Below, piece by piece: positions 32,703-33,299 of a stretch of DNA of 55,823 nucleotides. The translations under genes and the position numbers were made by a program. Positions within the stretch are counted from its first letter, which is position 1. Each line of letters begins with the position of its first letter. The notes beneath the pieces are model-generated. The model saw only the letters and a program-made list of their open reading frames with translations, ran no database searches and had not been told where the DNA came from. This DNA is from Acidobacteriota bacterium (GTDB lineage: Bacteria > Acidobacteriota > Blastocatellia > UBA7656), in NCBI GenBank assembly GCA_040754075.1, contig JBFMDH010000043.1, positions 1-55,823 on the forward strand. Direction: 5' to 3'.

Positions 32703-33299
32703 ATGTTTTTAAACGATGTCGAAAATAAAGCGGGCAATACCGATTACCACGAACGCATCGCCCATATGCGAGCGCATGATTTGCCGGTGCCGCAAATCTG
32801 GCACTTGTTTGCTTTCAAACCGCAGATGACCGAACATCTGGCGCGTTTTACTGAAGAAGTGATGCGCGGCGCGTCGCCGCTTTCGGCAGGCATGCGGGAA
32901 CTCATTGCCGCTTTCACGTCGCGGCGCAATGATTGCCCTTTCTGAATCGGCGCACACGCGGCGGGCGCTGCGGAAACTTTAGGTGACGCGAAACTGGTCG
33001 AGGAAGTCCTGAGCGATTACCGTTCATCGCGTCTCACCGATGCAGAAAAAGCTTTGTTTGCCTTCATTGAAAAAGTAAACTCGGCATCGAATCAAATCCG
33101 CCAAGCGGACATTGACGAATTGAAAACCTTTGGCTGGACGGACGAAGCGATTTACGATGCCATCACGGTTTGTGCGTTGTTCAATTTTTACAATCGCTGG
33201 AACGATGCCGCCGGAACCGAAGATATGCCGGCGTTCGCTTATGAAATGTCGGGCAAACGCATCGCTTCGCACGGATATTTTCAAGAGGAGAAGAAGTAG
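32703..33299 (+). CDS. AhpD-family peroxidase-related protein, candidate selenoprotein (in-frame TGA)
   Basis: A 198-residue AhpD-fold (carboxymuconolactone-decarboxylase-like, peroxidase-related) protein if TGA at 32943-32945 is read through. Residues 66-85 read E66...N76-D77-C78-P79-F80-[TGA81]-I82-G83-A84-H85. This is exactly the AhpD signature E-x11-C-x2-C-x3-H with the second Cys replaced by TGA. After the TGA the same frame stays open for 117 codons with clean homologous features (AEKALFAFIEKVNSASNQI, ALFNFYNRWNDAAG). AGGAG at 32691-32695 sits seven nt before ATG 32703. Selenocysteine at the peroxidatic position would be chemically sensible, and AhpD-like selenoproteins are known from metagenomes. 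A C-to-A sequencing error or nonsense mutation is the alternative. Confidence 0.72.
32943..32972 (+). promoter_or_regulatory. Putative bacterial SECIS hairpin after the in-frame TGA
   Basis: Starting six nt after the TGA, CGCA (32951-32954) can pair with TGCG (32969-32972). An inner CGC (32957-32959) can pair with GCG (32965-32967), leaving an apical loop GGCGG (32960-32964), with a small internal bulge. Bacterial SECIS elements lie directly 3' of UGA and need a short stem with a G at the start of a small apical loop; this one fits, although a slightly different pairing (32949-32953 with 32965-32969) is possible. Free energy was not computed. Confidence 0.5.

Follow-up and report, generated by a model that had tools for sequence, protein, structure and literature searches.

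A probable selenocysteine codon, followed by a conserved SECIS-like hairpin, in an AhpD-like gene of an Acidobacteriota bacterium

Does an in-frame TGA within an AhpD-like gene of an Acidobacteriota bacterium terminate translation, or is it read as selenocysteine (Sec)? This question is raised by the reading frame at 32703-33299 on the forward strand of contig JBFMDH010000043.1 (assembly GCA_040754075.1), the 55,823 nt of which constitute the window. This contig, C43, is one of the 68 that make up a 7.58-Mb genome (completeness 100, contamination 0.11). The frame encompasses 198 residues including codon 81, the single in-frame TGA at 32943-32945, which is preceded by 80 codons and followed by 117, and it closes with TAG at 33297-33299. 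A Shine-Dalgarno-like AGGAG, read from the sequence at 32691-32695, is positioned 7 nt before the ATG at 32703. These features bear out an initial annotation that proposed a CxxU selenoprotein at this locus, and that also anticipated the splitting of the gene by gene callers; the standard code indeed yields two ORFs, at 32664-32945 and 33054-33299. The evidence presented here makes it very likely that codon 81 is decoded as Sec.

The gene is bordered by repeated sequences. An inverted repeat of AGTAGGC units at 33295-33420 overlaps its stop codon, with 23-nt arms that are 100% complementary and 42-nt arms that are 83% complementary; the repeat has 60 matches in the genome at E 0.01 (itself included), mostly of 23-41 nt and often in inverted pairs, and may be a dispersed element of the REP or MITE type. 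Between the genes for an M64 peptidase and the selenoprotein, at 32491-32654, lie two additional pairs of inverted repeats, with arms of 19-21 nt that are 86-89% complementary and letters like TTCCGTCTGTTCCG.

Profile searches assign the product to the AhpD/CMD superfamily, as had been proposed, with 114.2 bits against the NCBIfam model TIGR01926 (peroxidase-related enzyme; curated cut-off 81.8) and 41.4 bits against Pfam CMD (PF02627; gathering score 23). Scores below the cut-off were obtained with NF041238 (AhpD_rel_CFYUT (seleno)protein; 38.2 bits, cut-off 175) and NF053654 (YciW-related (seleno)protein; 22.5 bits, cut-off 310), and no match at E 0.001 was obtained with TIGR00777, which represents AhpD sensu stricto (curated cut-off 191.95 bits). 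The catalytic motif of AhpD is E-x11-C-x2-C/U-x3-H, and the frame contains it as E66-x11-C78-x2-U81-x3-H85, with E66 encoded at 32898-32900, C78, the first Cys of CxxU, at 32934-32936, and H85 at 32955-32957. AhpD of Mycobacterium tuberculosis (1gu9), which carries the motif as E-x11-C-x2-C-x3-H, resembles the product no more than weakly in fold (rank 38 among the matches, E 0.2). Sestrins (PF04636) display a distant similarity of 23.7 bits, below the cut-off of 29.4, with 5t0n and 5dj4 at E 0.2-0.4, but these are chains of approximately 360 residues from animals.

Relatives of the gene were collected from three sources, namely 195 related genomes searched at E 1e-20 (of which 13 matched, including the own genome), a single contig scan (15 loci), and 396 genomes of the phylum searched at E 1e-40 (13 matched, including the own genome and overlapping the first set); such searches look for proteins like the query, and very different ones could be missed. 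Rows with an identity of at least 42.5% constituted the near set, which comprises the gene itself (L001) and 26 relatives, among them loci whose records bear the titles Acidobacteria, Pyxidicoccus, Citreicoccus, Gemmatimonadetes, and Planctomycetota. Own-genome paralogues L002, L003, L004, and L006 and seven other loci (L037-L043) fall below this threshold. The counts exclude L044 (the same gene as L031, with an identical match on a contig of equal length), L058 (partial, ending short of the site), and L005 (an own-genome AhpD-like gene that was not among the tblastn rows covering the site). The match of L061 contains a second stop (TAG) just two residues from its end, which we interpret as the natural terminator of that gene.

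E66, C78, and H85 are invariant in all 27 rows of the near set, and column 81 holds exclusively Cys or TGA (the TGA being read as C in the alignment), which confirms that the TGA stands where the AhpD motif has its second Cys. Codon 81 is TGA in 17 of the 26 relatives and Cys in the other 9, giving 18 TGA and 9 Cys (8 TGC, 1 TGT) when the gene itself is included; raising the identity threshold to 43% leaves 26 rows, own gene included, with 18 TGA and 8 Cys. The same dichotomy holds for the full set of 38 rows in which the site is covered, the gene itself included, where 25 TGA and 13 Cys codons were found and no other codon, which is the pattern that the initial annotation had named as support for Sec. 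These alignments bear directly on the possibility that the TGA is a sequencing or assembly error for TGC or TGT: a single base change would indeed give Cys, but other assemblies have TGA at this codon too, and the downstream hairpin described below is found with TGA genes and not with Cys genes. A read error is unlikely given this recurrence, and the explanation was rejected on that basis as having a negligible probability.

In a tree of 36 rows, from which rows under 30% identity were left out except L002 and L003, the TGA and Cys labels require 3 changes, versus 9.7 when shuffled. The resolution of several deeper branches is poor, and three of the terminal branches are long. Three Sec genes and the Cys genes L036 and L063-L065 nest together in one starred clade, which suggests that Sec and Cys have been exchanged.

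An alternative explanation is that the TGA is a true stop and that the gene is a pseudogene or encodes a truncated protein, the remainder of which is decaying; the standard code does give a 93-aa ORF that ends at the TGA. Selection on the codons beyond the TGA argues against this. Relative to the nearest relative (75% identical), dN/dS amounts to 0.117 upstream of the TGA (80 codons) and to 0.112 downstream of it (114 codons compared); these ratios are approximate because dS is near saturation (1.9 before and 1.2 after), but the two halves agree nonetheless. Comparison with L032 gave 0.093 after the TGA, while synonymous sites before it were saturated and provided no usable ratio. Purifying selection is thus equally strong on both sides of the TGA. 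Moreover, the other motif residues are kept, and the near relatives have either the same codon or Cys. The combination of equal selection on either side of the TGA and a site that is restricted to TGA or Cys led to rejection of the pseudogene explanation, which we regard as highly improbable.

Bacterial SECIS elements are located immediately 3' of the UGA, and the initial annotation had drawn a hairpin with loop GGCGG downstream of the TGA. A conserved stem-loop is present there, but that loop was misdrawn: the actual structure (32957-32972, forward strand) consists of a 6-bp stem, formed by 32957-32962 with 32967-32972, and the loop GGGC at 32963-32966, which starts 17 nt after the TGA. The bacterial SECIS model outlined in a 2026 review specifies a loop of 3-9 nt, a stem of 4-16 bp, G in the two leading positions of the loop, a spacing of 16-37 nt, and a minimum free energy of at most -7.5 kcal/mol (PMC13188914). 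The window hairpin agrees with this model in every respect, with its 4-nt loop GGGC, 6 bp, and spacing of 17 nt, and with a minimum free energy of -14.3 kcal/mol for the 48-nt stretch.

Taken alone, this hairpin proves little, and its weight lies in its conservation across TGA genes. The folding energy of the 48-nt stretch, evaluated for this single sequence, equals that of shuffles (z 0.26), and synonymous recoding of this stretch produces such a stem in 22% of draws, since the protein sequence favours it here. An Rfam search of 32850-33100 detected no SECIS family; a riboswitch match in the same region scored 10.3 bits, below the gathering score of 33, and was dismissed as chance.

Among the near rows, a 4-nt loop at the fixed position with a G in its first two positions and a stem of at least 5 bp was detected in 17 of 18 TGA genes and in 0 of 9 Cys genes, and the same test at 4 bp gave 17 of 18 versus 1 of 9. 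When any loop of 3-9 nt was allowed at spacing 17 in the full set of 38 rows, a stem of at least 5 bp was found with 24 of the 25 TGA genes and none of the 13 Cys genes (24 and 2, respectively, at 4 bp). The loops of all 24 have G in their two leading positions, and L034 is the sole TGA gene that lacks a hairpin at this spacing. Spacing 16 also scores (20/25 TGA rows), being the same stem less one pair, and the next best spacing is 20 (10/25). The contrast is weaker when any spacing of 16-37 nt is accepted with at least 6 bp (22/25 TGA versus 3/13 Cys). With six pairs required, the stem is present in 12 of the 14 TGA genes of the first set, versus 2.4 expected by synonymous recoding, although the associated P of 3e-8 is overstated as the genes are related. 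Three of the six stem pairs have changed on both sides, and the covariation score of 0.271 declines to 0.092 or less when the partner is slid by 1-3 columns. Finally, six distant TGA rows contain a differently built hairpin of 7-8 bp with a 3-nt loop such as GGA, the spacing of which is still 17 nt. These comparisons indicate a putative SECIS element that shows both conservation and covariation, and that accompanies TGA but not Cys.

The initial annotation had also called for the Sec machinery to be sought in the genome, and all four components are present: selA (565.9 bits), selB (383.5), and selD (353.2) were found by profile, and a tRNA-Sec (selC) scored 65.5 bits, over the gathering score, with anticodon tca according to ARAGORN. 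The selD gene (L017 / L068, G000:C29:72690-73613) has an in-frame TGA near its N-terminus, in the context VSCAG-U-AAKL, which fits a Sec-containing SelD. Two further AhpD-like paralogues in the same genome carry a TGA in the same column (C62:5745-6155 and C17:102368-102727). This machinery makes Sec decoding possible, and by itself does not point to the gene at 32703-33299; it is weak evidence for this gene because selB is over the cut-off in 158 of the 195 searched genomes, the own genome included.

Scoring of 26 genomes that were picked for carrying the gene or a relative of it (later-found carriers G325, G370, G429, G430, G471, G494, and G503 being left out) placed selA over the cut-off in 18 of 19 TGA genomes and 7 of 7 Cys genomes; for selB the corresponding counts were 18 of 19 and 6 of 7. 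The machinery does not track the TGA or Cys state, and its co-occurrence with the gene is not discriminating. Neither selA nor selB was over the cut-off in G196, the genome of TGA orthologue L046; this locus is situated on a 9.8-kb contig (JAGVPT010000004.1) of a 'Bacteroidetes' MAG and is placed in the tree beside a deltaproteobacterial orthologue (support 91/61), and the contig may have been mis-binned.

Elsewhere in the genome, contig C62 (L066, G000:C62) contains three AhpD-like genes at 986-8776, one of which has an in-frame TGA (5718-6254), near frames that resemble thioredoxin, FMN-type oxidase, DsrE, isochorismatase, and Crp proteins (the non-AhpD names being assigned by eye). This group may be a redox stress cluster that includes a Sec-containing AhpD.

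In the established pathway of Sec incorporation, SelD makes selenophosphate, SelA makes Sec-tRNA-Sec, and SelB delivers it; in this organism, SelB would bind the candidate stem-loop 17 nt after the UGA and insert Sec there. The product is predicted to be an AhpD-like domain that is all-helical and has CxxU as its redox pair, modelled by AlphaFold2 with a pLDDT of 94.7 and a pTM of 0.91 (Sec modelled as Cys), and this model matches the AhpD-like solved structures 2prr, 2pfx, 3c1l, and 6k40 (TM by query 0.72-0.76). Sec81, activated by His85 and Glu66, would most likely attack a hydroperoxide, after which Cys78 would resolve the selenenic acid by forming a selenylsulfide, and either a lipoyl protein or thioredoxin may then re-reduce this bond. 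Peroxidase activity is suggested by homology only and is the most likely function, and peroxide reduction by Sec81 with Cys78 as the resolving residue, including the presumed reductant, is reasonably probable.

A second possibility concerns the function of the protein and not its decoding, namely that a genuine Sec-containing CxxU protein acts as a thiol/selenol reductase for partner proteins, or as a reductive enzyme like the debrominase Bmp8. Structures of Bmp8 (6ohi/6ohj) are among both the profile and the fold matches, and AhpD is described in a review as donating electrons to AhpC and, in the case of C. glutamicum, also to OsmC (PMC8945050). The nearest solved relatives, on the other hand, are named 'peroxidase-related', although these are names and not tests. 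The AhpD-like protein of Deinococcus radiodurans (6k40; DR_1765) shares family and fold with the product (profile E 4.1e-39, TM by query 0.74-0.75), but belongs to another phylum and has CxxC instead of CxxU. According to the same review, loss of this protein makes a D. radiodurans strain more sensitive to H2O2, and resistance is partly recovered with the wild-type gene but much less with CxxC variants (PMC8945050). The CxxC is thus needed for H2O2 resistance there, which speaks for a peroxidase, though it does not separate a peroxidase from an electron donor.

A Pfam scan of seven frames around the gene gave no hint of dehalogenation. Upstream lies the M64 peptidase and downstream a Ser/Thr kinase that has TPR repeats; of 20 loci compared over flanks of approximately 1-4 kb, only the nearest relative, L044, shares them, so no partner or substrate can be named from context. 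In the same window, one reverse-strand frame (27044-28753) joins MauE/DoxX-like membrane and thioredoxin/AhpC-TSA-like domains. A non-peroxidase role is considered possible but rather unlikely, and peroxide reduction is retained as the preferred function.

AhpD-like selenoproteins with CxxU are already in print. The 2026 review tabulates, among prokaryotic selenoproteins, an 'AhpD-like protein, TIGR01926, CxxU' (MCB9421940.1) as well as further CMD/AhpD selenoproteins (PMC13188914); the former shares the NCBIfam model and the motif with the gene studied here, a likeness by description and not by the sequence of MCB9421940.1. A survey of the Global Ocean lists AhpD-like 1 and 2 with CxxU, the second of which (pfam02627) has the same Pfam family and motif and is likened at the level of the family, not of the subfamily (PMC2398784). 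A predicted SECIS for an AhpD-like protein is mentioned in a figure legend of a Sargasso Sea paper (PMC1088965), and a 2006 survey credits Acidobacteria with 4 selenoproteins in 3 families (PMC1794560). The kind is therefore known, TIGR01926 members included, and what is new is this member, which makes the gene less novel than the initial annotation took it to be; knowledge of selenoprotein kinds is unchanged by it. A wider and distinctly speculative proposal is that this is an AhpD-like subfamily spanning several phyla, with Sec as its usual and probably old state and Cys as derived, a mini-SECIS that stays at exactly 17 nt while stem and loop are rebuilt, and a selenol chemistry different from simple peroxide removal, e.g., reductive dehalogenation or lipoyl-linked reduction. 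The present analysis recovers a gene whose active site is the point at which standard ORF calling breaks it in two, and it contributes a clade of AhpD-like selenoproteins in which natural Sec and Cys variants are matched and the geometry of the SECIS hardly varies, thereby offering a natural set for asking what Sec gains over Cys and how SelB tolerates changes in the SECIS.
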